Source: Roseobacter denitrificans OCh 114
GTDB taxonomy: Bacteria; Pseudomonadota; Alphaproteobacteria; Rhodobacterales; Rhodobacteraceae
Direction of reading: 5' to 3'
NCBI RefSeq assembly: GCF_000014045.1
Contig: NC_008209.1
Location: 310,001 to 374,000, forward strand
Length of the DNA: 64,000 nt
Position 1 is the first letter of the stretch. Each line of letters begins with the position of its first letter. The position numbers and the translations under genes were made by a program. Under the pieces are notes generated by a model. It was not told the DNA's origin. It ran no database searches and saw only the letters and a list, made by a program, of their open reading frames with translations. Positions 6,864-28,948 of the stretch are shown piece after piece.

Positions 6864-6921
6864 AATGACGCCCCTGTGGCCTTGTTCAGCTTTAGATAAT
6901 CGCCCGCGCAGGAAAGTGCAA

Positions 6922-7821: not shown

Positions 7822-7830
7822 GCGCGTCCT

Positions 7831-8010
7831 CTATTCCATCGCTTTTGATGGCTGCGGGGCAGCGCGCCCTGCAGCGCGCTGCTCTTCGGCCACTTCGCGA
7901 ATGCTCACACCCGACGCACGCAACACTTCCGCAGCCCCGGACAAATGGCTTGCCACCGTTTTCAAAAGGCTCATCAGCACATCGGGGTCATCCCCGATCA
8001 CGGCGCGAAA
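7831..8010 (-). pseudogene. severed C-terminal 59 codons of the ABC/cNMP-binding protein
   Basis: Directly after the TAG that ends the upstream open frame (8013-8011), the same frame stays open for 59 further codons with normal codon use and ends at TAG 7833-7831, 9 bases before the CPBP start. The translation (FRAVIGDDPDVLMSLLKTV, then ASHLSGAAEVLRASGVSIRE) continues the cyclic-nucleotide-binding-like domain naturally: it supplies the C-terminal helix expected after FLRIGAE. I infer that this was part of the ancestral gene and is now cut off by a nonsense mutation, a sequencing error or readthrough. Confidence 0.75.
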
Positions 8011-10953
8011 CTACTCTGCGCCGATCCGCAGGAACTGGCTGTCTGTCTGCGCGATCAGATCAAGCTGGCGCGGCTCATCCAGAATAATCGCAAGATCCCC
8101 GATCAAGCGTCCCGGTTCGACTGCCGTGACATCCTGGCGGGTCCCGTTGTTGTCGACATAGCTCATCATCGCAGTGCCGGAGAGACACAGATACACCGCA
8201 TCCGCCCGCTCCCCCATCGAGAATATCCGCTTGCCCTTGGGCGCATCATACCACTGTGCCGCAAAGGCCAGCAGCCGCTGGCTGCGCGCCTCAAGGTCAG
8301 CAAAAAGCTCTGTGCGCGAGATCACCCGGATCTTGCGCCGCAGATCATCCGAGCCCGAGGCATCATCCTCGACCTCTTCCACGTCATCTTCGCCATCAAT
8401 CCGGCCATTCTTGATTTCGATGTGCAGATCATAGGCTTGCGGGTTTTCGAAATTATCCTCAAGGAAAATCATGGTCGTCTTGGGCAGCAACTCCTGCAGG
8501 CGCGCGCGGGTGCGCTGGCGTGACGCCGCATCATGGCTGGCCAGAACCGTGTCGAGGATCAGAACATCGGGCCGTTTGATGCCCGCTCTGCTGAAGGCTG
8601 CGCGTTCCTGAAAGATATTCGCCATATTGGCCCCACCGAGACCCGTCGGCACATCAAGAACCGTCTCTGCGACAAGCCGTTTCAGACCTTTTTCCGCGAG
8701 CACGTCGGCGACGATATCCTCGATCAATTCACCCTGAACCCCGGCGATACCCGCAACCCGCCCATAAAGCACGTTTTCCATCAGCGTCATGCGCGGCAGG
8801 TAATTCTCGGGCGCGACGGGAACGAACAGGTCCTTCAGCCGGTTGCGGATTTCCTCGCTTTTGGTTTTGCGGATTTCAACGATTTCCTTTTTGAAACTTT
8901 CGGGAAAGCCGGGGCCAATCTGCTCTGCGGTGAAGGCGAAAGGCACCGTCAGCAACAGCGCGAATTCATCTTCGCTGATCGCCTGATCGCCCCTGTCCTT
9001 ACGGCGCATGGCAATATCCACCAGCTTTTCATAAAGCTCTTCTTCGATGCCCAATGCGGTAAACAAGGGGTGGCTGGTGCCATCCATGCCAAAGGTCTGG
9101 TGCAGCGTTTCGATCAGCGTCTGGGAAATGGCGATCCCCTGCTCTGCGAGGCCAATCTCTGTGAACAGCCGCAAAAAGTTGGCTTCCGACGCGAGGCTCT
9201 CCTGCGTGATGTGCCTTCTGGGTGCAGCAAACATCAGGTTACCGCCCAGCGGGATGGAAGGGTTGAACTCATCCGGATCAAAACGATTGACCATGGACGC
9301 AAGCCCCCGTTCCTGCAAGCGCACCTGCACCTCGTCGCGCAAATCCACCAGTTGCTGTGCCAGTTGCGGATGTTTTTCAGGGTCCATACGCGCATCGAGC
9401 ATGCGGCGGAACATGATGTCATCCGTGCCCATCGCCTCGACGAGGTGGAACCACCATCCGCGTATCTCATCGGCAGTATTCAGGCCGGCAAGCTGCGGGT
9501 CCAGCCAGTCCGCTTTGGTGCTGTCGGGGCTGTTGCCGGCGCGTTGCGCCTCGATAGCCGCTTTGTCTTTGTGTTTCGGGTCCCAAAGGACGGTCTTGGG
9601 ACTGGTCTTCAGCGGCATGAACAGATTGTCACCCAAGGTGCCATTAAACAGGTAGGGGCGCGAATGGGCATACCCGATACGCGCTGCGACAACCGCCTGA
9701 TGCAGGTCGTTCAGACGCCGGCCCGCAATGGTGATATCGCCGCGCGTCGGGATGACCTCCCGCGTCAAAAGTTCGGCAAAGGCGATGCGCTCGGACTGGT
9801 TGGTGGATTTCACCGCGACGCGCGCACCTGCCGGAATTTCAAGGTTGATGTTTTCCAGCACCGCATTGCCATCTGCGTTACGCACGGTCACATTCTTCAT
9901 CGAAATCGCGCCATCCAGACGGGGCATGTCATCCGGTTCGCCCTCGAAAAGGCTTTCCTCGATCATGCCCTTGGGCGCAAAACGCTCCACCACGATTTCC
10001 CAGCGCAAGGACATGTCCTGCACCTGATTATAATAAGTCAGCAGTTCCTTCCACGGCGAGCTGAGGTCCTTGTAGGCGGCCAGCGCCGCCACCAGCGCGC
10101 CGACGGTGATGTCACCGCGAATGGCCAGAAGCCCCCCGACCGAATAGAAAAAGAACGGCGTCAGTTGCGTGATGAAGTTGTTGAGAAACTTCATGAAGAA
10201 CTTTTTCTGGTAGATCTGAAAGCGGATGTCGAACAGGCGACCGAGCCGGTCGGTGAACCCTGCCAGACGGAAACGCCAGCCCCCGTTGGTTCGCAAATCC
10301 GTCACACCGGCAGCGGTTTCGCCGATTTCCGCCGCGAACTGGCGCACCTCGACTATCCGCTTTTTGTTCAGTTGATTGATCTGCCGTTGCAGCATGGGGA
10401 TCAACCATGCCTGCAGCGGGATCAGCGCGATTCCGGCAAGGCCGAACCAGACACTTTGCGCAAAAAGGAATGCCACGATGATCAGCATCTGCCCGGCCTG
10501 AAAGACCGGCTGCGCGACGGCATCCCCCATCAACCCGCCCATCGGCTCGGCCTCGGAGGTGACCATCGACACAAGCTCCCCCTGCGAGGTCGATCGGAAA
10601 TAGGCGCGCGGAAAGCGCATCATGCGGCCCACCAGCTGATAGCGGAACCGGCGCAACAGCCGCTCGGCAAGCACACCTTTCATGGTGTTCAGCCGCATCT
10701 TGAGCAAGCCATGGACCAGCACCGACAGCAGGTAGAGCCCGCACAGGATCATCAGGAATTCGGTTTGCGAAACTTCGATTCCATCCCAGATTTCAACGAT
10801 CGAAGACGTCGCCCCGATCGCATCGTTGATGATCCGCTTGGGCAGTTCCAGCGTGGCGTAAAGAAACGGGAACGTGAATATGGTGAAAAACAACAGAACA
10901 ATCTGCTGTCGTCTGGAATACTTCCAGATGAATGAGAAAATCGAGGGTTCCAT
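8011..10953 (-). CDS. giant ABC-exporter-like protein with degenerate ATPase and C-terminal cNMP-binding-like domain
   Basis: A 980-residue protein as it stands (1040 if the amber codon is ignored). Residues ~1-330 form an ABC exporter type-1 transmembrane domain. From ~345 an ABC nucleotide-binding fold begins (SMKNVTVRN...VLENINLEIPAG), but the Walker A loop reads AVKSTNQSER instead of GxxGxGKS/T. A ~300-residue insertion separates the first half from the signature-like segment (GLGGANMANIFQERAAFSRA, near 770) and a Walker B-like DVLILDTVLAS that lacks the catalytic Glu. Residues ~870-980 are a Crp-type cyclic-nucleotide-binding domain. Hydrolysis by this domain looks impossible, so it may be regulatory or structural. 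Function unknown. Confidence 0.8.
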   Translation of the reverse strand: MEPSIFSFIWKYSRRQQIVLLFFTIFTFPFLYATLELPKRIINDAIGATSSIVEIWDGIEVSQTEFLMILCGLYLLSVLVHGLLKMRLNTMKGVLAERLLRRFRYQLVGRMMRFPRAYFRSTSQGELVSMVTSEAEPMGGLMGDAVAQPVFQAGQMLIIVAFLFAQSVWFGLAGIALIPLQAWLIPMLQRQINQLNKKRIVEVRQFAAEIGETAAGVTDLRTNGGWRFRLAGFTDRLGRLFDIRFQIYQKKFFMKFLNNFITQLTPFFFYSVGGLLAIRGDITVGALVAALAAYKDLSSPWKELLTYYNQVQDMSLRWEIVVERFAPKGMIEESLFEGEPDDMPRLDGAISMKNVTVRNADGNAVLENINLEIPAGARVAVKSTNQSERIAFAELLTREVIPTRGDITIAGRRLNDLHQAVVAARIGYAHSRPYLFNGTLGDNLFMPLKTSPKTVLWDPKHKDKAAIEAQRAGNSPDSTKADWLDPQLAGLNTADEIRGWWFHLVEAMGTDDIMFRRMLDARMDPEKHPQLAQQLVDLRDEVQVRLQERGLASMVNRFDPDEFNPSIPLGGNLMFAAPRRHITQESLASEANFLRLFTEIGLAEQGIAISQTLIETLHQTFGMDGTSHPLFTALGIEEELYEKLVDIAMRRKDRGDQAISEDEFALLLTVPFAFTAEQIGPGFPESFKKEIVEIRKTKSEEIRNRLKDLFVPVAPENYLPRMTLMENVLYGRVAGIAGVQGELIEDIVADVLAEKGLKRLVAETVLDVPTGLGGANMANIFQERAAFSRAGIKRPDVLILDTVLASHDAASRQRTRARLQELLPKTTMIFLEDNFENPQAYDLHIEIKNGRIDGEDDVEEVEDDASGSDDLRRKIRVISRTELFADLEARSQRLLAFAAQWYDAPKGKRIFSMGERADAVYLCLSGTAMMSYVDNNGTRQDVTAVEPGRLIGDLAIILDEPRQLDLIAQTDSQFLRIGAE

Positions 10954-17285: not shown

Positions 17286-20261
17286 CTAGTCCGGATTACC
17301 GCGCGTATAGCTGAGTTTGGACAGATCGGGTGCTTTGCCCTCTGCGGGTGCAAGGGGCGCGGGGCTGGCCCCCGGCTGTGGGGTCAACCGGTGCCTGAGC
17401 AGCGCCATCGGATGCGCCCTGAGCGTCAGGCGCATGGCGACATAATCCTCGACCACCTCTTCGCCCAATGTCATTTCGGGCAACAGGGCTGCGGGTTCAT
17501 CAATGGCTTCTCCGTCGATATCGCCTGCAAACAGCGGCAGCGGCGCGCCCGGCACCAGCGCCTTGGCCTCCCAGAGGGCAGCGCGGCGATTAAGGTCGAG
17601 GGCGGCAAAAACATCTGCCTCGGCAAGACGTTCGATCATCACTGGCTGCAGCCCGGCCCGTCGCCATACATCGCGCACGGAGCGATAGCCGTTGCCGCGC
17701 GCCGCTGTCAGCCACGTGGCGTCCTCTTCGCTGATGCCCTTGATCTGCCGAAACCCCAGCCGCAGGGCGAGACCGCCGCGCCCGTCCGGCTCCATCACAT
17801 TATCCCAGAAACTGGCGTTGATGCAGATGGGCCGCACATCGACCCCATGCTCGCGTGCGTCCCGCACGATCTGGGCGGGGGCGTAAAACCCCATGGGCTG
17901 CGAATTCAGCAGCGCGCAGGCAAAGATGCCGGGGTGGTGGCATTTGATCCAGGACGAAGCATAGACCAACAGCGCAAAACTGGCCGCGTGGCTTTCGGGA
18001 AACCCATAGGATCCAAAGCCTTCGATCTGGCTGAAGCAGCGTTCGGCAAAATCATCATCATAGCCTTTGCGTTTCATGCCCCGCAGAAACAGGTTCTTGA
18101 ATTCACTGACGTTCCCGTGCTTCTTGAAGGTCGCCAGCGAACGGCGCAGACGGTCCGCCTGATCGGGGGTAAAGCCCGCGCCGACAATGGCGATCTGCAT
18201 CGCCTGTTCCTGAAACAGCGGCACGCCCAGCGTCTTGCCCAGCACCTCGCCCAACTCGTCGGAAGGAAAGGAGACCTCTTCTTCGCCATTGCGGCGGCGG
18301 ATGTAGGGATGCACCATATCGCCCTGAATGGGGCCGGGGCGGATGATCGCGACCTCAATCACCAGATCATAGAAACAACGCGGGCGCATGCGCGGCAGGA
18401 AATTCATCTGCGCGCGGCTTTCCACCTGAAACACCCCGATGCTGTCCGCGCGGCACAGCATATCGTAAACTGCTGGATCCTCGGGCGGCAGCGAGGCCAG
18501 CGTGTGGCTGACATTATGGTGCATCTGCATCAGATCAAACGCCTTGCGGATACAGGTGAGCATGCCCAGTGACAGCACATCAACCTTGAGGATACCGAGC
18601 GCCTCGATGTCATCCTTGTCCCAGCAGATAACGGTGCGCCCTTCCATCGTGGCGTTTTCAATGGGGACCAGTTCGTCAAGCCGCCCTTCGGTGATGACAA
18701 ATCCGCCGACGTGTTGGCTGAGGTGGCGGGGAAAGCCGTTGATCTCATGGACGAGTGCAAGGGTCTGCTGCAGGCGGCGGTCATTCGCATCCAGCCCGAT
18801 TTCGGCCATGCGTTCCGCTTCGATCCCCTTGGTGGAAAAGAACCCCCAAAGCTGTGAGGAGAGGGCAGAGATCGTATCTTCGCTCAGCCCCATGGCGCGG
18901 CCCACCTCGCGGATGGCGCGTTTGACCCGGTAGTGCACGACCGTCGCGCAAAGCCCCGCGCGGTGGCGGCCATAGCGTTCATAGATGTGCTGGATGACTT
19001 CTTCGCGGCGCTCATGTTCGAAATCCACGTCGATGTCCGGGGGTTCGTTGCGCGCCTCTGACACGAAACGCTCAAACACCATCGTGCCGATTTCGGGGGA
19101 GACGGAGGTGACACCCAGACAATAACAAACCACCGAATTGGCCGCGGACCCGCGCCCCTGACACAGGATGTCACGCGACCGGGCAAAGGCCACAATGTCG
19201 CGCACGGTCAGGAAATAGGGTTCGTATTTCAACTTGCCGATGAGGGTGAGTTCATGTTCCAGCAAGCGGTGAACCTTGTCGGAGGCCCCTGCCGGGTAGC
19301 GCCATGCGAGCCCCTCATAGGCCAGACGGCGCAACCGGCCCGATGGGGTTTCATTCTCCGCAATCTCTGACGGGTATTCATAGCGCAGTTCATCCAGTGA
19401 GAATTGCAGGCTTTGGGCAAGGGTGTGGGCGCGGTCCACGGCGGAATCAAACCCTTTGAAAAGGCGGCGCATCTCGGCCTCTGAACGCAGGCGTGCCTCG
19501 CTGTTGGGCAAGGCGTCGCGGCCCAGATCATCAACGCGGCAGCCCGCGCGGATGGCGGTTACAACATCTGCAAGCTTGCGGCGCGCACCGTGATGCATGA
19601 CAGGAGCCGCACTGGCCACTGTCGGCAAGCCGAGACGCCGCGCCTGTTCGGTGAGGTCTGCAAAGCGCTGAGGGTCACGGCCATCATACTGTGGGAAAAG
19701 GCCGATATGAATTTTCCCGCCAAAACGGTGCGTCAGCTGTCGCGCGGTTTGCACCCATCCACCCGCGCCGCACGGCACCCCCTGCGCCTGTGGCCAGAGG
19801 ATCAATTGCAGCCCGCATCCCCCTTCCAGCAGGTCTTGCTGGCGCAAGTCACAGGCCCCTTTTTCGGCTCGCTGCCGTCCCGTTGAAAGCAGGCGGCACA
19901 GGGCGCCCCATCCTGCGCGGTTTTCCGGCAGGGCCGTGATGTCGCAAGCATCCGCGAAAACCAGCCGGGCTGCCGGGATCAGGCGCGGCGTTGCGTAAAG
20001 GGTCGCAGGCGCCACACGCAGCCCCGCCGGCAGGGCCGGGCCGATCTGATCATTTGCGGCCTCCCACGCCTGCCGCTCGCGCACCTGCCGGGCAATGTCA
20101 CGCGCCTGCGCATAGGCGCGGACAATGCCTGCAACCGTGTTTTCATCCGCAATCGCAATGGCTTCGATACCCAGTGCCGCTGCACGGGACATGTATTCCT
20201 CCGGGTGGGACGCCCCTTTGAGGAAGGAAAAATTAGAGGTGATATTGAGTTCAGCAAACAT
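17286..20261 (-). CDS. dnaE2: error-prone DNA polymerase DnaE2 (lacks C-terminal OB domain)
   Basis: A 991-residue C-family polymerase. The PHP domain is at the N-terminus (MFAELNITSNFSFLKGASHP), the palm contains GRGSAANSVVCYCLG and the catalytic aspartates PDIDVDFEHERREE, and the fingers/thumb region follows. DnaE2 is the damage-inducible translesion polymerase that normally works with ImuA' and ImuB. After the helix-hairpin-helix region (EDYVAMRLTLRAHPMALLRHRL) most family members continue with an OB-fold of ~110 residues; here only a ~30-residue Pro/Ala-rich tail follows, and no remnant is visible in any frame before gpmI. No imuA or imuB is adjacent. Confidence 0.92.
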   Translation of the reverse strand: MFAELNITSNFSFLKGASHPEEYMSRAAALGIEAIAIADENTVAGIVRAYAQARDIARQVRERQAWEAANDQIGPALPAGLRVAPATLYATPRLIPAARLVFADACDITALPENRAGWGALCRLLSTGRQRAEKGACDLRQQDLLEGGCGLQLILWPQAQGVPCGAGGWVQTARQLTHRFGGKIHIGLFPQYDGRDPQRFADLTEQARRLGLPTVASAAPVMHHGARRKLADVVTAIRAGCRVDDLGRDALPNSEARLRSEAEMRRLFKGFDSAVDRAHTLAQSLQFSLDELRYEYPSEIAENETPSGRLRRLAYEGLAWRYPAGASDKVHRLLEHELTLIGKLKYEPYFLTVRDIVAFARSRDILCQGRGSAANSVVCYCLGVTSVSPEIGTMVFERFVSEARNEPPDIDVDFEHERREEVIQHIYERYGRHRAGLCATVVHYRVKRAIREVGRAMGLSEDTISALSSQLWGFFSTKGIEAERMAEIGLDANDRRLQQTLALVHEINGFPRHLSQHVGGFVITEGRLDELVPIENATMEGRTVICWDKDDIEALGILKVDVLSLGMLTCIRKAFDLMQMHHNVSHTLASLPPEDPAVYDMLCRADSIGVFQVESRAQMNFLPRMRPRCFYDLVIEVAIIRPGPIQGDMVHPYIRRRNGEEEVSFPSDELGEVLGKTLGVPLFQEQAMQIAIVGAGFTPDQADRLRRSLATFKKHGNVSEFKNLFLRGMKRKGYDDDFAERCFSQIEGFGSYGFPESHAASFALLVYASSWIKCHHPGIFACALLNSQPMGFYAPAQIVRDAREHGVDVRPICINASFWDNVMEPDGRGGLALRLGFRQIKGISEEDATWLTAARGNGYRSVRDVWRRAGLQPVMIERLAEADVFAALDLNRRAALWEAKALVPGAPLPLFAGDIDGEAIDEPAALLPEMTLGEEVVEDYVAMRLTLRAHPMALLRHRLTPQPGASPAPLAPAEGKAPDLSKLSYTRGNPD

Positions 20262-20292: not shown

Positions 20293-20367
20293 TCATTTGG
20301 AGTCTCATTTGCGAGCCACGAAAACAGATTTCATCAAAAAGAATGACGCCCGCCCTGTCAGGCCCAT

Positions 20368-20372
20368 GCAGG
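20368..20372. repeat. left target-site duplication candidate (GCAGG)
   Basis: GCAGG just outside the left end, repeated at 28944-28948 just outside the right end. Mu-type transposition makes 5-bp duplications. Five bases can match by chance, so the call rests on the symmetric spacing of the flanking transposase sites. Confidence 0.5.
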
Positions 20373-20380
20373 TGAGCGCG

Positions 20381-20395
20381 ATCACATGGTTTGAT
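20381..20395 (+). repeat. Mu-like left-end transposase site L1
   Basis: ATCACATGGTTTGAT, 13 of 15 identical to the inner sites. It is the outermost site at the left end; its mate L2 lies 65 bases further in, a wide L1-L2 spacing as in phage Mu attL. Confidence 0.65.
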
Positions 20396-20445
20396 AACTC
20401 TGAAAAATCAGATGCAATGATTTCAATGGGTTATGTGGGGTGATT

Positions 20446-20460
20446 ATCACTTGGTTTGGT
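20446..20460 (+). repeat. Mu-like left-end transposase site L2
   Basis: ATCACTTGGTTTGGT, identical over all 15 bases to the inverted site at 28899-28913. Both are preceded by TGGGGT(N)A, so the repeat extends outward imperfectly. Confidence 0.75.
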
Positions 20461-20563
20461 GCGTTTGGGCGTCAAATGCGGATTTGGTGCAAATCAGGCG
20501 GAAAATTATCTAATAAAATCAATGTGGGACATAGCGGAAGAGCAACTCAATAGTTGCCAGTTG

Positions 20564-21076
20564 CTACTTCCATTCTTTGAGATGTGGATTGTCTTTCAGG
20601 TCTTCTTCCAACTGGTTGGCCACCCTATCCAGAGTAGCCTGTGGATCACGCAAATCCTCTTGCATCAAAAGGGCCTGCGCAGTTTTCAAGTCTACCTTCA
20701 ACGCCTCCATTTTTAGCCTTAGCTCATGCACCGCGCGATGCATCACCAACCAAAACGGCAGCAAGTCCAAAAAGACTGGTAGCGCTGTATCTACGTCACC
20801 GCTGGAAGCTATTTTTTGTCTAAGAATTGTGAAGCGCACTAAAGCAATAGACTGGCCCCGCTCCTCAAGTTCTGGCCAACTTTGTGTAGCGTTCTTTGAC
20901 ACGCCCTCTTTTGGAGGCTCAAGCATTTGAACAAATCGGTTTGGTACACGACCCCGCGAACGCCAAGACGATATTGTGCTTTGATCAATACCCAATTTTC
21001 TAGCCAACTCGGCATTATTTTGGGCGCTTAGCACAGACCTTAAGCCTGCAATCGTTTCATCAACTACGTTTTCCAT
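20564..21076 (-). CDS. Mu-like c repressor (CI-type helix-turn-helix)
   Basis: A 170-residue protein divergent from the early operon. The N-terminal ~55 residues (AELARKLGIDQSTISSWRSR) are a helix-turn-helix of the phage CI repressor type; the rest is helical with no obvious domain and no LexA-type Ser/Lys protease motif. The ATG at 21076 has GAGGG 5 bases upstream; the open frame includes one extra TTG codon. Position and direction match the Mu repressor c, so I infer it represses the transposition operon through sites in the 67-base divergent gap. Confidence 0.75.
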   Translation of the reverse strand: MENVVDETIAGLRSVLSAQNNAELARKLGIDQSTISSWRSRGRVPNRFVQMLEPPKEGVSKNATQSWPELEERGQSIALVRFTILRQKIASSGDVDTALPVFLDLLPFWLVMHRAVHELRLKMEALKVDLKTAQALLMQEDLRDPQATLDRVANQLEEDLKDNPHLKEWK

Positions 21077-21143
21077 CAAGCCCTCTTGACTTCGTTATAT
21101 GCAGCGCTCATACTTTGCATGTAAAGTTTTGTATGGATGCGCA
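21077..21143. promoter_or_regulatory. divergent operator/promoter region between repressor and Ner-like gene
   Basis: A 67-base gap holding dyads: ACTTT-GCATGT-AAAGT centred near 21119 and, around it, CATAC (21109-21113) with GTATG (21131-21135). This is the expected place for repressor and Ner binding in a Mu-type switch. Confidence 0.45.
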
Positions 21144-21356
21144 ATGTCTGATGTAAAGATACCAGATCACCTTCGGCAACGCCATAGGCAAGTCCGTGCG
21201 GGGTTTATCGTTCAGGGCACTAGCCTTCAAGAGTGGTGCAGGAGCGCAGGTGTAAAACGGCAAAACGCCGATAAGGCGCTACTTGGGCAATGGCAGGGTG
21301 AGAAGGCCAGCAATCTGGTACAGCGCATTTTGGCCGCTGCGACGTCCATAGAATGA
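21144..21356 (+). CDS. Ner-like small DNA-binding regulator
   Basis: A 70-residue basic protein (MSDVKIPDHLRQRHRQVR...) with a helix-turn-helix-like centre (SLQEWCRSAGVKRQNADKAL). It occupies the position of Mu Ner, immediately before the transposase, and its stop overlaps the transposase start by 4 bases. Ner turns down early transcription in Mu. An in-frame start 45 bases upstream exists but lies in the operator region. Confidence 0.65.
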   Translation: MSDVKIPDHLRQRHRQVRAGFIVQGTSLQEWCRSAGVKRQNADKALLGQWQGEKASNLVQRILAAATSIE

Positions 21357-23293
21357 ACCTTTCTGTTACATCAATTGTCGGCTTGCCGGGAATGCCAACA
21401 ACTACTTTTGGGACACGAAAGTGGTTGAAATGCAGAAACGTTGCACATGAGAAGCAAGGCAAGAGATTTGTATTCAACCTCTGCGACCTGCCCGAAGATA
21501 TCCGCACCGCGTACCTGACCCGCCAAATCGAACTGGCTGGGCTTGATACTGGCACCTATGATGAAGCGGCGCATGACCAGTTGCGCGCGGCCCCTGCGTC
21601 GATGCAGACCGCCGCAGAACGGCGCGCAGCCATTACACGGCTGCTGGTAAAGCTGGGTGACAGTGTGAGTTGGAAAGACCGGCGCGCGCTGGTTTGCAAA
21701 GAGTTCGGCACCAAGGGCAATTCGATCCAGAGCCTTAAACGCCTGTTCAAAGAGGTCGAGAATACTGACCCGATCAACTTCGCGCCTGCGTTACTGCAAG
21801 GCCATAAGGGTCGCACGGTCAAGGCTGATATCGCGGATGAACTTTGGGAGTTGTGGCTTGGTATCATTCAGAAGTCCGCGCCCTCCCATGCGCTGACGGC
21901 GGTTTATGACGATGTTCAGTTGATTGCAGACAAGAAGGGGCTGGCATGGCCCAGCTACCCGACGATCCTGCGGCGCTGGAACGCCTTGCCAGAGATCGAG
22001 CGCACTACCCTTCGCCACGGTGGCAAGCACGCAGCCAAAGAGCTTTATCAGCCGCAACGGCGCAGTGTTGCCAAGGTTCAGGCCATGCAAGTCGTTGAAA
22101 TGGATGGCCGAACGCTGGATATCTGGGCGGAGTTCGAGGACGGCACGATAGCGCGCCCCACCATGATCGCGCTGGTGGATCGCGCCTCTTTCAAGGGCCT
22201 GCACTTCGTAATTGGTAAGGGCGAAACGGCCCTGCTTACCCGCGACCTTATCCTTGAAACCTGTGATCGCTATGGCATTTTTGATCAGTTGTTGACGGAT
22301 AACAGCCGCTCATTTTCTGGCCTTTTGGTCGCCGGTGGCGTCAAGCACAAGTTCCGCAACTCCGGGTCTCGCTTGCCTGAGTGGGAACCGCCCGGTGTCT
22401 GTGAACACTTGGGCATCGAATTGAAGTTCACCTTGCCGCACAATCCGGGTGCTAAGATACCGGAAAGCAAATTCGCAAAATGGTCACGTCGCATTGACAC
22501 CCGGCCTGAATTTGCCGGTGCGCATTCAGGGCACAACCCGCTCGACAAACCTAACGGCAACGAAACACCGGTTCCAATCGCTTTGGTGCGTGAAATTTAT
22601 GCACGCGAGATGGCCCGCGACAATGCCAAGGCGGGCCGTCGCACGCAGAATGCGCGCAAGGGTGAGAGCTATGACCAGACCTTTAATCGGCTGTTGCAGA
22701 GCCGCATTCACAGGCCCATGCAACCCAAGCAGCGCTGGCGCGCATCCTTGCTCTATCAGGTGCGCACCGTGGATCGTCTGGGGCAGATTAGGGTCAACGG
22801 CTGGGTTTATGGCAAGGACAGCCTGGACGGCTCACAAGAGCGGCTTTTGCCCTATGCAGGCCTGCCGGTTTTGATCGGCACGGATCCGTCGAACTATGCA
22901 GCGCCCGCGATTGCCTTCGATATGGACACAAGGCGCGAGATCATGGCCGGTATCCAGCCCGATCTGGAAGGTGACTACATGGATCAGGACGGTGCCCGTG
23001 AGGCCAGCAAGGAACGCGCGCGATTGCGCAAGATCACCCGCGAGATTGAAACCCGGCACAGCCGCGACTTGTCCGATTTCTACGCCGATCTGAACGACGG
23101 CCGGGACCTTGGGTGCTTGGATGATCCGGCCCGCGCCAATGTCGTCAAACCCAACTTTAAAGACCCGATCCGCGCGAAAGCCAATGCCAAATCTGAGGCA
23201 ACGGAACGCGCGGAACGTCAGGAATTCTTGGTCCGCATGAAGGCGGAACAGAATGAACGAAAGGCCAGCGGTGGCACCCGCCAGCCTTTCTGA
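21353..23293 (+). CDS. Mu-type transposase A (DDE integrase)
   Basis: A 646-residue MuA homologue. The DDE triad can be placed from sequence: Asp251 (VVEMDGRTLD), Asp316 (LLTDNSRSF) and Glu371 (AKIPESKF), with spacings of 65 and 55 residues against 67 and 55-56 in phage Mu. The N-terminal winged-helix end-binding domain precedes it and the C-terminal ~130 residues (ERARLRKITREIE...) are the charged region that in Mu contacts MuB and ClpX. Length is close to MuA (663) and there is no frameshift, so the enzyme appears intact. Confidence 0.92.
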   Translation: MNLSVTSIVGLPGMPTTTFGTRKWLKCRNVAHEKQGKRFVFNLCDLPEDIRTAYLTRQIELAGLDTGTYDEAAHDQLRAAPASMQTAAERRAAITRLLVKLGDSVSWKDRRALVCKEFGTKGNSIQSLKRLFKEVENTDPINFAPALLQGHKGRTVKADIADELWELWLGIIQKSAPSHALTAVYDDVQLIADKKGLAWPSYPTILRRWNALPEIERTTLRHGGKHAAKELYQPQRRSVAKVQAMQVVEMDGRTLDIWAEFEDGTIARPTMIALVDRASFKGLHFVIGKGETALLTRDLILETCDRYGIFDQLLTDNSRSFSGLLVAGGVKHKFRNSGSRLPEWEPPGVCEHLGIELKFTLPHNPGAKIPESKFAKWSRRIDTRPEFAGAHSGHNPLDKPNGNETPVPIALVREIYAREMARDNAKAGRRTQNARKGESYDQTFNRLLQSRIHRPMQPKQRWRASLLYQVRTVDRLGQIRVNGWVYGKDSLDGSQERLLPYAGLPVLIGTDPSNYAAPAIAFDMDTRREIMAGIQPDLEGDYMDQDGAREASKERARLRKITREIETRHSRDLSDFYADLNDGRDLGCLDDPARANVVKPNFKDPIRAKANAKSEATERAERQEFLVRMKAEQNERKASGGTRQPF

Positions 23294-23327
23294 ATGTCAC
23301 CAAACCTTAGCAAAGGATCACGATAAC

Positions 23328-24092
23328 ATGAGAGAAACCATACAACCCATCGACACCACGGTCTACACGACTTTGGATTGGCAGGTCAGGAACCTGCTTA
23401 AAACGGCCGGGCTTGGCATTGCGCGCGGCCCGGTCGGCATCGGAAAGAGCTATTCGATCAACCGGCTACATGATGAGTTGGAAGCGGAAGGCGTGAAAGT
23501 CATCTTGGCGACCTGCGCGCCCAGCACGGAAGGCAGCTATCAGGCTTTCGTGAAGACCATTCTTGCAGAACGCAACGTCTACCATACAGGCATAGTGGAC
23601 TGCATGGAGGCGTTCGAGACCCTGATAATGGGCAACCCGCACGGCTATATTCCGCAGCCTTCCATCTTAATCGTGGACGAATGTCAGGGGATGCGTGCGC
23701 CGGTTCTGACCATGTTGCGCCAGCTTTGGGATATTGGCGATCCCGCACGACTGAACGGCAAGGGAACAGCCTTTGCGATGCTGCTTTGCGGCAACAATAC
23801 CTTCCTGAACCGAAGCGGTATCGTGCGTGAAATGGACCTGCACCCGTTGCGCGACCGTCTCACCATGAAAGTCCGTCTTGATGCGCCTGACACCGCGGAG
23901 TTGGACAGTATCGCGCAAAGTTTCTGCCCGCATGATGCAAACGCCTTGGCAGAACTGCGGAAATACGGGCGCAAGCGTAGCAACGTCCGGGCGATTGCAC
24001 AGGCCTACCGCATGGCGGGAACGCTGTCGGGTGCAGCACCGGTATCCGCTCAGAACGTTCGGGACGCGATTAAAATGATGGAGGGTGTGTAA
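23328..24092 (+). CDS. MuB-like AAA+ target-capture ATPase
   Basis: A 254-residue AAA ATPase. Walker A is RGPVGIGKSYSI, Walker B SILIVDECQGM, followed by a polar sensor-like AMLLCGNNTF. MuB captures target DNA, stimulates MuA and gives target immunity. The open frame continues upstream to 23253, overlapping the transposase, but the ATG at 23328 has AAAGGA ahead and gives a normal N-terminus. The stop overlaps the next start (TAATG). Confidence 0.88.
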   Translation: MRETIQPIDTTVYTTLDWQVRNLLKTAGLGIARGPVGIGKSYSINRLHDELEAEGVKVILATCAPSTEGSYQAFVKTILAERNVYHTGIVDCMEAFETLIMGNPHGYIPQPSILIVDECQGMRAPVLTMLRQLWDIGDPARLNGKGTAFAMLLCGNNTFLNRSGIVREMDLHPLRDRLTMKVRLDAPDTAELDSIAQSFCPHDANALAELRKYGRKRSNVRAIAQAYRMAGTLSGAAPVSAQNVRDAIKMMEGV

Positions 24093-24430
24093 TGCCGGAA
24101 GTCATCATATCCATCCCGATGTCGGACGAGGAAGCACAGAAAACAGTCGGCAAGCAGATCATGGTTTTGTTTGTGTCGGATGATCAGCGCGCGGCGATAA
24201 GCGCCACCATGGGTCAGACCCATGAGTTTCTGAGCCTCACACATCAGAACCTTAACACACTGGGCGAAATCGCGGAAACCCGTGGCGCCGGCGAAACGGA
24301 CCTGACCAAAACCATCGGACAGTTGCGCGACCCGTCCCGCAAGGTGCTGGGCGCGTTCGAGGGGCTCATGAAGTTTTTAGGACAGGCGCATTTCATCAAG
24401 CCCGGATCGAACGGGGAGAGACTGCAATGA
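24092..24430 (+). CDS. small phage protein of unknown function
   Basis: A 112-residue hydrophilic protein with mixed helical segments and no motif I recognise. It overlaps the MuB stop by one base and the next gene by 4 bases, so it belongs to the early operon. In Mu this interval carries semi-essential early genes (kil, gam and others), but no similarity to them is visible. Confidence 0.7.
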   Translation: MPEVIISIPMSDEEAQKTVGKQIMVLFVSDDQRAAISATMGQTHEFLSLTHQNLNTLGEIAETRGAGETDLTKTIGQLRDPSRKVLGAFEGLMKFLGQAHFIKPGSNGERLQ

Positions 24431-24750
24431 ACGTATCCACACACCACGTTGCAGTTGCCGTTCCCGCCGATAAGCTTGCTGCGCTCTATGATGCGATGAA
24501 CGAAAGCCCTTACTATCTTGTGCGTGCGGCTGAGGTGCTGCGCCTGATTTCAGCGGCTATACACGACGTAACATCTGACGAGGACAACGCACCTCCCGAA
24601 ATCTGGAAATATGCCGGAACCGCCGAGCTGTGCGCCATCGGGCTTGAACAGATCATGCATCAACATGGTGAGCTGCTGATCGTTATGAGTTCACAGGTCA
24701 GGGAAGCCATCAATTTCAACGATCACATAGGACAGGGGCAAGACCAATGA
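24427..24750 (+). CDS. small phage protein of unknown function
   Basis: A 107-residue acidic protein, probably all-helical (KLAALYDAMNESPYYLVRAAEVLRL). No recognised domain. Overlaps both neighbours by 4 bases (ATGA), confirming the frame and the early operon. Confidence 0.7.
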   Translation: MNVSTHHVAVAVPADKLAALYDAMNESPYYLVRAAEVLRLISAAIHDVTSDEDNAPPEIWKYAGTAELCAIGLEQIMHQHGELLIVMSSQVREAINFNDHIGQGQDQ

Positions 24751-25157
24751 AGCTGACGAACAAACAGATGGCCCTTTTGCACGTGGCCAAGTCCAAGCTG
24801 GACCTGTCGGAGCATCAATACCGCGCCACGCTGGTGCAGATCGCCGAGGTGACCAGCGCCACCGAACTGGATCAGGACGGCTTTGACGCCATCATGGGCT
24901 TTTTCGAGTATCTTGGCTTTACGCCGCTCACACCGCGCGCCAAGGACTACGGCACCCGCCCCGGCATGGCGAGCTTTGCGCAGATCGAGCTGATACTGGC
25001 CCTGTGGCACGAATACACGGGCGGCAAGGCGGGGGAAGCCGAGTTGAACAAATGGCTTTTGCGGACGTGGAAAATATCCAGCCTGCGGTTCCTGAGCAAA
25101 GCCATGGCACCCAAGGCCATTACAGCGCTGAAATCCATGAAGGCCCGCGCGGCCTGA
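24747..25157 (+). CDS. GemA/gp16-family phage regulatory protein
   Basis: A 136-residue protein matching the Mu gp16/GemA family (DUF1018): N-terminal LTNKQMALLHVAKSKLDLSEHQYR, the central FEYLGF segment, and the C-terminal WLLRTWKISSLRFLSKAMA block. In Mu, GemA affects host gene expression and DNA supercoiling. It is the last recognisable gene of the early operon before a 452-base stretch without genes. Confidence 0.85.
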   Translation: MKLTNKQMALLHVAKSKLDLSEHQYRATLVQIAEVTSATELDQDGFDAIMGFFEYLGFTPLTPRAKDYGTRPGMASFAQIELILALWHEYTGGKAGEAELNKWLLRTWKISSLRFLSKAMAPKAITALKSMKARAA

Positions 25158-25609
25158 CCAGCCTGAGCAAGGATGCAGAGGGGCGGTGCGCGGTGCGTGC
25201 CGCCCCTTGCTTTTGAACAGGGGCGGGAAAACGGCCCGCTGAGCGCCTTTAAAGCCCAATTGGCCCCGGTCCCCCACGATACCGCCTAACGGCCCGCAAA
25301 ACCGTTTAAGAATTGAGCTACGGCCTTTAAATCCATCCGGGCTTCGTGACGTTCCCAGAACGAAGCTCAATTTGACCGTAAAATAATGGCATGCTACCAA
25401 TTCGGCGCTGGTCGGGCATAAGACACCGCAGTTCGGTTGTGGCTCGTTTCGGACGTTTCGTTGTGGGACGATCAGCACTCTGAAACACCGTGCTGCATGG
25501 CCCTCCGCAAGAGGCTTGCGGATGTACCGACTTCCGGCACTTTCCTAGATTGTTGGTATTCGCCCGGAACGCTTCCGACAGGCTCAACATCACGTCAGGA
25601 AATTGCACC
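25158..25609. other. 452-base gap between early and head genes; no gene recognised
   Basis: No convincing ORF. Composition is less GC-biased and lacks codon periodicity. It holds AATTGAGCT (near 25313) and its perfect inverse AGCTCAATT (near 25366), with a second nested pair CTTCGT...ACGAAG between them. In Mu this interval would contain Mor, lysis, terminase, portal and head-assembly genes. A ribosome site (CAGGA) for gpT is at the right edge. Confidence 0.6.
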
Positions 25610-26506
25610 TTGTTTCTAGATACAAAAACACTCGAACTTGTCTTCAAAGGCTTCCAAACAGTCTATTCAGACGCCTATCTCAAGGCGACTGTTCATTGGG
25701 ACAAGATTGCCATGCAGGTGCCAAGCGCCAGCGCGGAAGAAACCTATGGCTGGCTTGGGGATTTTCCGCAGATACGCGAATGGCTTGGCTCGCGTATCGT
25801 GAACGGTCTGGAGGCGCACAGCTTCAAGATACTCAACCGCGAATTCGAAAGCACAGTTTCAGTCGGCCGCAGTCACCTTGCAGATGACAAGCTGGGCATC
25901 TTCAAGCCCGCCTTTTCTGAAATGGGCCATTTGGCCCGCAACCATCCCGAAGAACTGATCTTCAACCTGTTGGCCTCCGGGTTTGATACGCCATGTTACG
26001 ACGGGCAGAATTTTTTTGATACGGACCACCAGATCAAGGCACCGGATGGCAGTTCCACCAGCGTCAGCAACATGCAGGATGGGTCCGGACCCGCGTGGTT
26101 CCTGCTGGACACCTCTCGCGCTGTGCGACCCATCATCTGGCAAGAACGCGAAAGCTATAAATTCGAGGCGCTGGACCGCCCGGGTGACTACAATGCGTTC
26201 TTTCACAACGAATACATCTATGGGGTGCGCGCGCGTGTCAACGCGGGCTTCGGTCTATGGCAGTTGGCCTATGGCAGTAAAGACATATTGGGCAGCGATA
26301 ACTATGCCGCTGCCCGTGCCGCCATGATGGGCTTTCGCAGCGATGGTGGACGCATTCTGGGCGTCAAACCGATGATGCTGGTCGTGCCGCCGGAACTGGA
26401 AGAAAGAGCGCTTCAGATCGTCAACACTGAATTCAGTACGGGCGGCGGCACCAACCCTTGGCGCGGCACCGCTGAATTGATCGTCACCCCATTTCTGGCG
26501 GGCTGA
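25610..26506 (+). CDS. Mu-like major head subunit gpT
   Basis: A 298-residue major capsid protein of the Mu gpT family: LVFKGFQTVYSDAYLKA, then ETYGWLGDFPQIREWLG, LNREFESTVSV, HPEELIFNLLASGF and CYDGQNFFDTDH, all characteristic. The open frame begins at 25490, but the extra 40 residues are not family-like; the TTG at 25610 has AGGA nine bases upstream and starts exactly where gpT should. The protein looks full-length and uninterrupted. Next gene begins 2 bases after the stop. Confidence 0.85.
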   Translation: MFLDTKTLELVFKGFQTVYSDAYLKATVHWDKIAMQVPSASAEETYGWLGDFPQIREWLGSRIVNGLEAHSFKILNREFESTVSVGRSHLADDKLGIFKPAFSEMGHLARNHPEELIFNLLASGFDTPCYDGQNFFDTDHQIKAPDGSSTSVSNMQDGSGPAWFLLDTSRAVRPIIWQERESYKFEALDRPGDYNAFFHNEYIYGVRARVNAGFGLWQLAYGSKDILGSDNYAAARAAMMGFRSDGGRILGVKPMMLVVPPELEERALQIVNTEFSTGGGTNPWRGTAELIVTPFLAG

Positions 26507-26508
26507 TC

Positions 26509-27429
26509 GTGGCTGACCTGAGCACCAGCTTGCAGGCCGCACCACTGGCGGCGGAGGCACCGGAGTGGGTGCATCTGATGCCATCGGGTGCCATATCCGG
26601 GCGCGATGGGCGCAGCTACACCGTGAGCAACCCGGACGCCTTGGTCGCGGCCTTTCACGCCCGTGGCGTCGATCTGCCCATCGACTACGAGCATCAATCC
26701 GAGACGCACAAGGAAACGCGCGTCGGGCCGGTGCCTGTGGCGGGCTGGATCAAGGACATGAAGGCCCGCGCGGATGGCATCTGGGGCCGTGTTGAATGGA
26801 CCGCAGCCGCGCGCGACCTGATCAGCCAGAAAGCCTATCGCTATCTCAGCCCGGTGATGATGCACCGCAAGGATGACAAAGAAGTGCTGCGTCTGAAGGG
26901 CGCGGGCCTTGTGCATCACCCCAACCTTACCCTTACCGCTCTTGCGTCTCAGGAGGACACCATGGACGATACACGCCCTTTCATGCACAAGATTGCAAAG
27001 CGTCTCGGCCTTGCGGATGGTGCCAGCGAAGACGAGATCATGCAGACGCTCGAAGACGCGCTTGGCAAGACGCCTGACCCGGAAAAATATGTGCCCATCG
27101 CGGCGATGCAAAGCCTGATGGATGACCGTGCCCAGACGGCTACTGCCATGTCTGAAAGCCGTGCCCTGGCAAAGGTCGAGGACGCGCTTGAAAAGGGCCA
27201 CATAACGCCGGGGATGAAAGACTGGGCCACGTCGCTTTGCCGCCAGAACGAGGCCAGTTTTGACGCCTTCCTTGAGCGCTCAGGCAAGGTGTTTTCCAAG
27301 CTGCTGGAACCGACACACACCACGGCCCACCCGCCCAGTGTTCAGACCAGCACCGCGCGCGCCGAAAGCGAGATGGCGGTGTCGATCTGCCGCCAACTGG
27401 GGCTGGAAGAAACGGCTCTGAATTCATGA
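26509..27429 (+). CDS. Mu-like head protease gpI with C-terminal scaffold
   Basis: A 306-residue homologue of Mu gpI, the procapsid maturation protease. The N-terminal ~150 residues (EWVHLMPSGAISGRDGR, LPIDYEHQSE, GWIKDMKARADGIWGRVEWT, YRYLSPVM) are the protease; the rest is helical, charged scaffold. GTG start just after the gpT stop. In Mu the order is I then T; here T precedes I. A strong internal start at 26962 probably makes the scaffold alone. Confidence 0.82.
   Translation: MADLSTSLQAAPLAAEAPEWVHLMPSGAISGRDGRSYTVSNPDALVAAFHARGVDLPIDYEHQSETHKETRVGPVPVAGWIKDMKARADGIWGRVEWTAAARDLISQKAYRYLSPVMMHRKDDKEVLRLKGAGLVHHPNLTLTALASQEDTMDDTRPFMHKIAKRLGLADGASEDEIMQTLEDALGKTPDPEKYVPIAAMQSLMDDRAQTATAMSESRALAKVEDALEKGHITPGMKDWATSLCRQNEASFDAFLERSGKVFSKLLEPTHTTAHPPSVQTSTARAESEMAVSICRQLGLEETALNS
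26962..27429 (+). CDS. nested scaffold protein (gpZ-like), internal start within gpI
   Basis: In frame within the protease gene, the ATG at 26962 (MDDTRPFMHK) is preceded by AGGAGG at a 5-base spacing. In Mu the scaffold gpZ is made from an internal start in gene I, and this arrangement is reproduced here. The product would be 155 residues, mostly helical, sharing the C-terminus of gpI. Confidence 0.65.
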   Translation: MDDTRPFMHKIAKRLGLADGASEDEIMQTLEDALGKTPDPEKYVPIAAMQSLMDDRAQTATAMSESRALAKVEDALEKGHITPGMKDWATSLCRQNEASFDAFLERSGKVFSKLLEPTHTTAHPPSVQTSTARAESEMAVSICRQLGLEETALNS

Positions 27430-27565
27430 CATTCGCCGGGGCTGCTGTTGGTGACGGCCCCGGCGATGTGTGCGGCGTGTTCACTCATGCCCCGCACCCC
27501 GGCCCTCTGGCGTTCGTTCATTCCGTCAGAGGGCTGCATTTCAAACGCTGGCCATATACATTTCA

Positions 27566-27591
27566 AATAGAGGTATTATAATACCTCTATT
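27566..27591. promoter_or_regulatory. 26-bp perfect palindrome containing TATAAT upstream of Mor-like gene
   Basis: AATAGAGGTATTA followed directly by its reverse complement TAATACCTCTATT. The centre contains TATAAT (27577-27582), a perfect -10 hexamer, with no good -35 at 17-18 bases (ATATAC). Lies 22 bases before the ATG of the Mor-like gene. Likely an operator overlapping an activator-dependent or autoregulated promoter. Confidence 0.65.
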
Positions 27592-27613
27592 GTGTTAGAT
27601 TAAGGTTTGCCCA

Positions 27614-27979
27614 ATGTCGGAAATCCAGCCTCTCTGCCCACTGCCGCCAGCGCATGTCGCAACCTATGTAAATGCTATGGGTGTTGAGACGGCGATTGAA
27701 TTCCTGCTGAACTTCGGCGGGGCAGAAATCCACCTCACGACGAAGCCGAGCCGCGGAGGGATGGTGGAACGTGTCATTGGCTACGAGAAAACCAAGCGCC
27801 TTGTAGAAGTGTCAATCAACAGCAAGCACCGTGTGCCGCTGGCGAACAAATGGCTGGCGCAATGCCTCTACTGCCAAGGCCTTTCAATCGCGGCCATCGC
27901 CCGCCGCGTGCGCCGTTCCGACACGACGGTGCGCAAGTATCTCAGGGGCACCAACACGCCAAGGTCAATGAAAAGGTAG
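27614..27979 (+). CDS. Mor-like transcription activator (helix-turn-helix)
   Basis: A 121-residue protein. The N-terminal half (YVNAMGVETAIEFLLNFGGAEIHL) has the pattern of the Mor/C activator dimerisation domain of Mu-like phages. The C-terminal half ends in a helix-turn-helix (QGLSIAAIARRVRRSDTTVRKYLRG). Mor switches on middle transcription in Mu. Here it lies among head genes rather than after gp16, preceded by its own palindromic promoter region. Ribosome site TAAGG. The family call is from pattern only. Confidence 0.6.
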   Translation: MSEIQPLCPLPPAHVATYVNAMGVETAIEFLLNFGGAEIHLTTKPSRGGMVERVIGYEKTKRLVEVSINSKHRVPLANKWLAQCLYCQGLSIAAIARRVRRSDTTVRKYLRGTNTPRSMKR

Positions 27980-27984
27980 CTGCC

Positions 27985-28479
27985 ATGATTGAAATCCAAA
28001 TTGACCAAGATGAAATTCGCGAGGCTCTATTGGATCTGGGTGAAAAACTCAATGATATGACGCCTGTGTTTCAGAACATCGGAGAAGCTCTGCTTGCCAG
28101 TACGGAGGATCGCTTTCGGGAAGGCGTTTCGCCGGACGGTGTTCCTTGGGCACCGAAATCTCAAACCACCATCGATGCCTATACCGCCAAAGGCTTTGCA
28201 GTGGACTTCCGTCCGCTCTGGGGCACGAACCCTAAAGGCACCGCTTTGAGAGATAGTTTGTTCTTTCAAGCCGGTCCTGACTATGCCGAGATAGCGACTG
28301 GTCAAGCATACTCCGCCGCAATGCAGTTCGGTGCGCAAAAAGGGGAGTTTACAAAAAGCGGATCGGCAAGCTCCGTTCCTTGGGGTGATATTCCTGCGCG
28401 ACCGTTTCTGGGCGTAAGTGACGAGGATGAACACAACATTCTGGCCGACCTGAAAGAATGGCTGGACGTCGCGACGTGA
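27985..28479 (+). CDS. phage virion morphogenesis protein (Mu gpG / P2 gpS type)
   Basis: A 164-residue protein of the phage virion-morphogenesis family: a helical N-terminus (EIREALLDLGEKLNDMTPVFQNIGEALLASTEDRF), the central PDGVPWAPKSQTT, the LRDSL and AMQFGAQKG segments, and the C-terminal IPARPFLGVSDED, all typical. In Mu gpG associates with head-tail joining. Start ATG 27985 with AAAAGGT upstream; a longer open frame to 27850 overlaps the Mor-like gene and is not supported. Confidence 0.82.
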   Translation: MIEIQIDQDEIREALLDLGEKLNDMTPVFQNIGEALLASTEDRFREGVSPDGVPWAPKSQTTIDAYTAKGFAVDFRPLWGTNPKGTALRDSLFFQAGPDYAEIATGQAYSAAMQFGAQKGEFTKSGSASSVPWGDIPARPFLGVSDEDEHNILADLKEWLDVAT

Positions 28480-28871
28480 CTGGGAATGAAATAAGCGTCC
28501 GGGTGGCAGCACTTGAAGAGCTTGAACGACAGATCAAATCAAGTATCGACTTGCTTGCCGAGATTGACAGGTCCCTAAGCCTTTTGAACGGCACTGAGAG
28601 GCCCGTTCAAACACCATTTGAAACCCCTTTAAAGCCGGTTGCAAACGCTGCCCAGCATCTGCGCGAACACCGCCCCGGCCGGCCATCTAAGATTGACAAC
28701 GACCCGGAACTACGAGCATTCATCGTCGCGAGGATCAACACGACGACATTCACGGCGCTGGAAAGAGAAGTTGCCGAGGCTTTTCCCCCGGATCGAAGGA
28801 TCGGTAAAAGCGCCATTCACAACTGGTGGGAACGCAATCTGAAAAGCATCCCCAAATCTGATCCCGAATAG
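28476..28871 (+). CDS. helix-turn-helix protein of unknown function at right end of element
   Basis: About 131 residues if started at the GTG that overlaps the gpG stop (GTGA); an in-frame ATG at 28458 would add six. N-terminal 40 residues are a coiled coil (VAALEELERQIKSSIDLLAEID). After a linker comes a basic stretch (HRPGRPSKID) and a helical DNA-binding-like domain (AEAFPPDRRIGKSAIHNWWERN) resembling homeodomain-like transposase N-termini. No partner nuclease is present. It is the last gene before the right end; possibly a late regulator or a small-terminase-like DNA binder, which I cannot distinguish. Confidence 0.6.
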   Translation: MTGNEISVRVAALEELERQIKSSIDLLAEIDRSLSLLNGTERPVQTPFETPLKPVANAAQHLREHRPGRPSKIDNDPELRAFIVARINTTTFTALEREVAEAFPPDRRIGKSAIHNWWERNLKSIPKSDPE

Positions 28872-28898
28872 CCCGGAGACACCCGTCCACTTCCGGAT

Positions 28899-28913
28899 AC
28901 CAAACCAAGTGAT
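28899..28913 (-). repeat. Mu-like right-end transposase site R2
   Basis: Reverse complement is ATCACTTGGTTTGGT, identical to L2 over 15 bases. Confidence 0.75.
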
Positions 28914-28920
28914 TACCCCA

Positions 28921-28935
28921 TCCAAACCATGTGAA
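28921..28935 (-). repeat. Mu-like right-end transposase site R1
   Basis: Reverse complement TTCACATGGTTTGGA shares TCACATGGTTTG with L1. R1 and R2 start 22 bases apart, matching the adjacent R1-R2 layout of phage Mu attR. Confidence 0.68.
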
Positions 28936-28943
28936 CACTACTA

Positions 28944-28948
28944 GCAGG
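28944..28948. repeat. right target-site duplication candidate (GCAGG)
   Basis: Matches 20368-20372 exactly. See the mobile-element entry for the alternative boundary with canonical terminal CA. Confidence 0.5.

Follow-up and report, generated by a model that had tools for sequence, protein, structure and literature searches.

P4-like satellites and Staphylococcus aureus pathogenicity islands (SaPIs) integrate site-specifically, and P4 carries its own late activator. To our knowledge, neither these elements nor the phage-inducible chromosomal islands (PICIs), capsid-forming PICIs (cfPICIs), PICI-like elements (PLEs), phage-inducible chromosomal minimalist islands (PICMIs), virion-encapsidated integrative mobile elements (VEIMEs) or Tycheposons move by Mu-type transposition, and a literature search, with most subscription papers outside its coverage, returned no description of a Mu-type satellite. 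Mu-like head genes have been reported in more than 130 genera, in a study whose accessible portion does not single out compact elements (PMC5488378). The subject of this work is a compact Mu-like element of 8571 bp that occupies positions 20373–28943 of a 64,000-nucleotide stretch of the Roseobacter denitrificans OCh 114 genome, hereafter the window. It is conserved and mobile yet lacks genes for a complete particle, and we think it likely that it represents a Mu-type phage satellite, one that transposes unaided, makes a head and tags its DNA with gene products of its own, and borrows the portal, motor, tail, and lysis functions of a Mu-like helper.

At the level of sequence, the transposition anatomy and the head genes are clear. 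The element is flanked by the 5-bp target duplication GCAGG (20368–20372 and 28944–28948). The left end (20373–20463, plus strand) opens with a terminal TG and carries the MuA-type sites L1 (20380) and L2 (20445), 65 bp apart, while the right end (28892–28943, minus strand) carries R1 (28936) and R2 (28914), 22 bp apart, and a terminal TA; these paired sites are close to TTTCANNNGGTTTGATACC. Between them lie a CI-like repressor on the minus strand (20564–21079; PF07022) and then, all on the plus strand, a Ner-like helix-turn-helix (HTH) protein (21144–21356; phrog_15281 and phrog_925, scanned as a longer frame from 21099), the MuA transposase (21353–23293; Pfam DDE_2), a MuB-like AAA protein (23253–24092, with a possible alternative internal ATG start at 23328; AAA_22, phrog_296), two small proteins that match nothing in Pfam or the PHROGs (24092–24430 and 24427–24750), and GemA/gp16 (24747–25157; PF06252). 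The DDE residues of MuA, D251, D316, and E371, are among the invariant columns in an alignment of five relatives. A complete transposition unit comprising MuA, MuB, repressor, Ner, and two ends, together with the 5-bp duplications found in the family, argues that these elements move by transposition and probably replicate in the same way.

Downstream of an intergenic stretch (25158–25609, plus strand) in which a terminator-like hairpin after gemA and then a late promoter region can be made out by eye, the capsid genes follow on the plus strand. They encode gpT, the major head protein (25610–26506; PF10124, E 1.3e-126), and gpI, the head maturation protease (26509–27429; PF10123, phrog_328), whose H62 and S114, presumably protease residues, are kept in 15 of 16 aligned sequences, the exception (L110) having been entered in the wrong frame. 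Within the gpI frame, an ATG at 26962 preceded 5 nt upstream by the ribosome-binding site AGGAGG opens a putative nested scaffold (26962–27429), which we take to be the analogue of Mu Z; a Met stands at or beside this start in most aligned gpI relatives, though not in JBD25. A Mor/C-type late transcription activator (27614–27979; phrog_836, E 3.5e-19), 40% identical to the Mor proteins of the Mu-like phages RS1 and vB_ThpS-P1 (hereafter P1), precedes gpG, a virion morphogenesis protein for tail completion or the neck (27985–28479; PF05069 and, with the longer frame, phrog_26), and a last gene encoding a long helix plus an HTH (28458–28871). A single frame stays open across 96–100% of the profile for each of MuA, MuB, GemA, gpT, gpI, and the last gene, and profiles for large terminase (TerL), portal, gp30/F, tail tube, tape measure, and amidase find no match in the element. 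An original prediction, made from the letters of the window, had proposed just this inventory: an intact MuA, genes for MuB, repressor, Ner-like protein, and gp16, the head protein, protease with nested scaffold, and gpG, every gene uninterrupted between two proper ends, and no terminase, portal, gp30, or tail genes. The profile matches, the invariant catalytic columns, and the paired end sites bear this out, albeit with a right terminus that reads TA, whereas the prediction was wrong in declaring the element devoid of Mor.

The element belongs to a conserved family whose hosts are marine bacteria and others related to them. A MuA profile built from five elements and searched against GTDB contigs and viral contigs matched 27 and 3 loci, respectively, the three viral relatives being recovered by this alignment-based search and none by a single-sequence MuA search of the viral contigs. 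In the 27 GTDB loci, gpT lies downstream in 14, a contig edge is reached first in 9, and the other 4 have suffered internal deletion or truncation (L113, L116, L118, L124); within the stretch covered, none of the 27 matches any of three reference phages in terminase, portal, gp30, or tail tube. Among 394 genomes of the same family as the host, a sample that overlaps the GTDB collection (e.g. L181 = L100), 24 match MuA at E 1e-60 or better. Two of these matches sit in full-length phages (L197, L198), and in two more (G173, G420) a Mu portal lies ~9–12 kb from the MuA match on the same contig. The remaining 20 comprise 16 with gpT, one internally deleted (G058), two that stop at contig edges (G396, G284), and G439 (L193), in which gpT is absent and a tape measure is matched. 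A scan with a profile of the last gene brought the viral contigs found to five, of which three (L209–L211) were new and carry the same late genes.

Sixteen elements, drawn mostly from Rhodobacterales, could be bounded at both ends, the right end of L011 being the end of its contig. They measure 8393 ± 422 bp (range 7496–9102), and every one has MuA, MuB, GemA, gpT, and the last gene, with gpI in all except L011. The L1–L2 spacing of the other bounded elements, 64–66 bp, matches that of the window, and an exact 5-bp duplication flanks 13 of the 15 with both flanks (not L111 or L180; L011, without a right flank, is outside this count, and the duplication of L107 was set by eye). The original prediction had proposed looking for the same gene set at unrelated loci, and the 13 exact duplications indeed represent 12 different target sequences, CCCCC alone occurring twice. 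Each bounded element has one Mor-type activator, located after gpI in nine and before gpT in seven, with both types never found together; two of the seven, L182 and L191, were assigned from weak matches (E 2e-6). Accessory genes vary: a decoration protein (phrog_1731) occurs in three, gpG in four, and a tape measure in one. By profile, none of the 16 carries TerL, portal, F30, full small terminase (TerS), tube, gp37, DUF1320, or amidase, for which the same profiles matched 60, 68, 70, 57, 35, 38, 80, and 1, respectively, of 90 phage loci; lysis was judged by the amidase profile alone, a weak test because it matches a single phage locus. Sixteen additional partial or damaged members likewise lack all eight; among them gpT is missing from L193 and gpI from L121, neither Mor profile finds a match in L104 or L127, and contig edges or damage have cost several members further genes. 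When ten proteins from unassigned frames of the relatives were compared with PHROGs in a search for lysis or packaging genes, one weak match to a family of unknown function was obtained, and seven of the ten had no match in Pfam.

The product of the last gene is modelled by AlphaFold2 as a long N-terminal helix followed by a C-terminal HTH (mean predicted local distance difference test 84.6, predicted template modelling score 0.47), and at profile level this HTH resembles the DNA-binding domain found in one type of Mu-like small terminase. Compared by hhalign with Mu-like small terminases, the last gene gave 94.5% for the JBD25 type and 89.5% for the pooled types, against 0.1–3.6% for eight control profiles, of which four represent HTH regulators. 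A hidden Markov model of the last gene run against the frames of the 90 phage loci had a sole match (L080:1524–2096, E 2.3e-5), which is the small terminase of the JBD25 type. The domain is C-terminal in the last gene and N-terminal in TerS, and the last protein may act in packaging. The original prediction of an element with no packaging genes holds for TerL and portal, neither of which is matched, and falls short for this small-terminase-like domain.

Late regulation may provide a link to a helper. In the window, the dyad CCGCAA-N5-TTGCGG (25505–25521, plus strand), a candidate Mor operator, matches its consensus perfectly, and its centre lies about 33 nt from a -10-like box, TCCTAGAT, picked out by eye (25543–25550, plus strand), a distance that we presume suits a Mor/C-type promoter. 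Dyads of the form CCGCAA-N4/5-TTGCGG, ~80–110 nt ahead of gpT, score at least 10/12 in 10 of the 12 elements with the first, RS1-type Mor (all except L093 and L180; L106, whose contig ends before the Mor gene, is counted with its sister L105), in a test that is not independent because the consensus was drawn from these same upstream regions. Control stretches reach this score in 0–8% of cases among the ten and in none for the window. None of nine elements with the second Mor type reaches it, scored ahead of the Mor-type gene in seven and ahead of gpT in L182 and L191, which are counted here because profile matching places them here. Against each of seven Mu-like phages, the best satellite Mor shows 42–58% identity to the phage Mor, and a dyad scoring at least 10/12 lies behind mor in six of the seven (controls 0.7–4.3%), P1 failing (85%). 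In L095, L103, and L121, a similar hairpin-like motif without an Rfam match, GAGCCAAGT..TCCCGTC, followed by GGGGGA(A/T)GTGACGTCCCCCC, stands ahead of the Mor-type gene. The region ahead of the second Mor type at five loci has no Rfam match to a structured RNA; nor does the window.

A cycle consistent with these features can be outlined. The satellite would share its cell with a growing Mu-like helper, probably an RS1/P1-like siphophage; a Mor-type activator, the satellite's own or the helper's, would turn on the gpT–gpI genes; gpT and the gpI scaffold would then assemble into a head that belongs to the satellite and is probably small, fitting the ~8.4-kb element plus host flanks. The small-terminase-like domain of the last gene would mark satellite DNA, and the helper would complete and release the particle with its large terminase, portal, tail, and lysis genes. 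Helper dependence, small heads, and a terminase function are what we infer; satellite gpI is shorter than that of the phages (median 304 vs 318 residues; Mann-Whitney p 8e-5), a small difference on which we do not rely. Mu-type portals were found in 7 of 23 genomes searched, one of the seven (G108) being a fragment; the window's own genome is among the 23 and has none. The carrier of L119, labelled Rhodobacter capsulatus SP108, holds Mu-type portals in the same genome, so that a workable host may exist.

Several observations speak against the satellite proposal, the circularity of the dyad test among them. The window's own genome yielded no Mu-type portal, and in the family sample such portals are not significantly enriched among carriers of the compact type (5 of 20 vs 45 of 374 others; Fisher p 0.094). 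The last gene matches the small terminases of the supposed helpers poorly (hhalign 16.6% against the P1 type, 0.4% against the RS1 type), and Foldseek with the last protein returned nothing at E ≤0.001 in PDB or BFVD. A run of at least four T follows the dyad in four of the six phages, which makes a terminator a real alternative to an operator. The right terminus of the window element (28937–28943) reads TA, whereas both ends are TG in the other 15 bounded elements, and this copy may be impaired in transposition. Finally, gpT is broken in L100 and gpI carries a stop in L093. In favour of the proposal, single open frames cover at least 90% of the profile for MuA, MuB, GemA, and the last gene in all 16 bounded elements, for gpT in 15 of 16, and for gpI in 14 of 15.

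The variable company kept by a constant gpT, with decoration protein, gpG, and tape measure each in a minority of the 16, would also suit a self-moving Mu-type transposon that is never packaged and keeps its head genes as a means of spoiling or sidetracking particle assembly in rival Mu-like phages. In such an element, acting in defence or exclusion, head genes minus portal and motor could work as decoys or in a dominant-negative way. We regard this as unlikely: PADLOC found no match among eight proteins, six of them from the window, and packaging would better suit the narrow range of sizes, the open protease with its nested scaffold, and the terminase-like domain.

Decay of a Mu-like prophage through internal deletion fares considerably worse and is in our judgement highly improbable. 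Shorter damaged derivatives do occur in the family (L097, L116, L124, L189), and gpT or gpI is broken in 2 of the 16 bounded copies. However, the same gene set recurs in 16 elements, and its order differs from that of ordinary phages: three Mu-like phages compared have the order G-I-T with terminase and portal upstream, whereas in the window and its relatives T precedes I and gpG, where carried, lies further downstream, an arrangement that cannot be reached from G-I-T by deletion alone. gpT and MuA also sit on branches of their own. A gpT tree of 99 rows, built by a quick method and omitting rows with fewer than ~240 aligned residues, the duplicate L109, and L180 onward, divides 18 satellites and the contig L034 from 80 others on a branch with a Shimodaira–Hasegawa-like approximate likelihood ratio test value of 100%, and a MuA tree of 38 rows, among them three identical pairs, splits 25 satellites from 13 others on a 100% branch. 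Closer full-length relatives may exist elsewhere, because the phage gpT rows are the nearest to the window gpT in one collection; among the loci examined, no full-length phage combines satellite-type MuA with the T-I order. Ratios of nonsynonymous to synonymous substitution (dN/dS), a comparison that the original prediction had called for across copies of gpT and gpI, are far below 1: 0.18–0.23 for five gpT pairs and 0.32 for the near-identical L104/L127, 0.12 for a single gpI pair, 0.19–0.45 for MuA, 0.15–0.31 for GemA, and 0.27–0.42 for the last gene, with high dS in several pairs. By this measure gpT and gpI are under purifying selection. Of the two origins that had been offered, a selected compact element is supported over an internal deletion, for the gene set is neither confined to one genome nor a simple deletion of a full-length relative.

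The boundary 25157/25610, where a deletion join might have lain, was rejected as a scar since a gap of 179–838 nt follows gemA in all 17 relatives compared as well (measured to the Mor-type gene where that precedes; the gap of L093 holds a decoration gene and that of L127 an HTH frame). Behind the terminator-like hairpin in this gap, paired TTTAA-containing repeats (e.g. CCCGTTTAA) are seen in the window (25158–25609) and in many members.

That the family instead makes tail-less capsids or gene-transfer-agent-like particles without a helper is very doubtful, for despite its own head genes and late regulation, portal and large terminase are unmatched in 16 of 16, as is the single amidase profile tried, leaving no known means to fill or release heads.

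The chromosomal setting and some individual members deserve brief mention. The window element lies between a dnaE2/imuC-like gene (17286–20261, minus strand) and a polA-like gene (29313 onward, plus strand), names read from translations. In the same-genus genome G012, a 285-nt alignment (92%) carries the right flank across the junction, which is modest evidence for an empty site because the alignment includes just 18 nt left of the junction and the remaining left flank aligns weakly ~470 nt away. In the contig L011, a 700-residue tape-measure protein (6597–8699) stands in gpI's place, and the contig stops exactly at the right terminus of the element, as if the neighbouring DNA varied. L106 and L111, metagenome contigs labelled Burkholderiaceae and Verrucomicrobiales, may be misbinned. 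The viral contig L034 (249–5828) encodes a tail protein, a tape measure, an HTH protein, gpT, gpI, and a small HTH protein, and is possibly a divergent relative, its gpT falling among the satellites. L124, L116, and L097 are ~4.1–4.6-kb derivatives with internal losses, L124 having an exact target duplication and L097 a left end that begins TC. In one carrier genome (L190), ~2.6 kb of other DNA splits the MuA matches, and a protein cluster (P0001) 99% identical to the window's last gene has 3 member sequences on 56 contigs.

If the satellite interpretation is right, a satellite with its own head and without portal or motor would imply that head, motor, and tail are divisible between two Mu-like elements; the family would offer a natural test of head-size determination and a packaging-specificity factor for study, and some seemingly defective Mu prophages of roseobacters may be selected parasites. 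We advance more tentatively, and with the balance tipping slightly the other way, the fuller claim of a satellite class, absent from the papers searched, in which Mu-type transposition is combined with an own small head, a rearranged small-terminase-like protein that would retarget the helper motor, and a shared Mor operator that would tie the element to the helper's late programme.

Comparison with known systems brings out both kinship and distance. The Mu-like siphophages RS1, RC1, and vB_ThpS-P1 of Rhodobacterales and the JBD25 type share a gpT 43–46% identical, related gpI and gpG, and, in some, related Mor and MuA; they differ in their size (~36–40 kb), in their terminase, portal, and tail genes, in the order G-I-T, and in belonging to other gpT and MuA branches. 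The integrase and att site of PICIs and P4-like elements have no counterpart here: Pfam and PHROGs match neither a tyrosine nor a serine recombinase among the window proteins, and the target duplications differ. The cfPICIs share with the window family their own major head protein and head protease and the absence of a tail set; as far as the accessible part of the source describes them, they also encode a portal, connectors, both terminase subunits, and an HNH nuclease (PMC10690885), whereas the window family brings just a small-terminase-like domain, with gpG in 4 of 16, has no portal or large terminase match, and moves by MuA/MuB. The Mulch and Flayer satellites of Streptomyces phages likewise have their own head genes, but add both the small and the large terminase, a portal, and a scaffold, and in that same portion of text no Mu transposase is mentioned for them (PMC10690885). 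Some SaPIs bring their own TerS, according to this partial account; and where P4-like satellites and SaPIs are described there as remodelling the capsid protein of their helper (PMC10690885), the window family brings its own.

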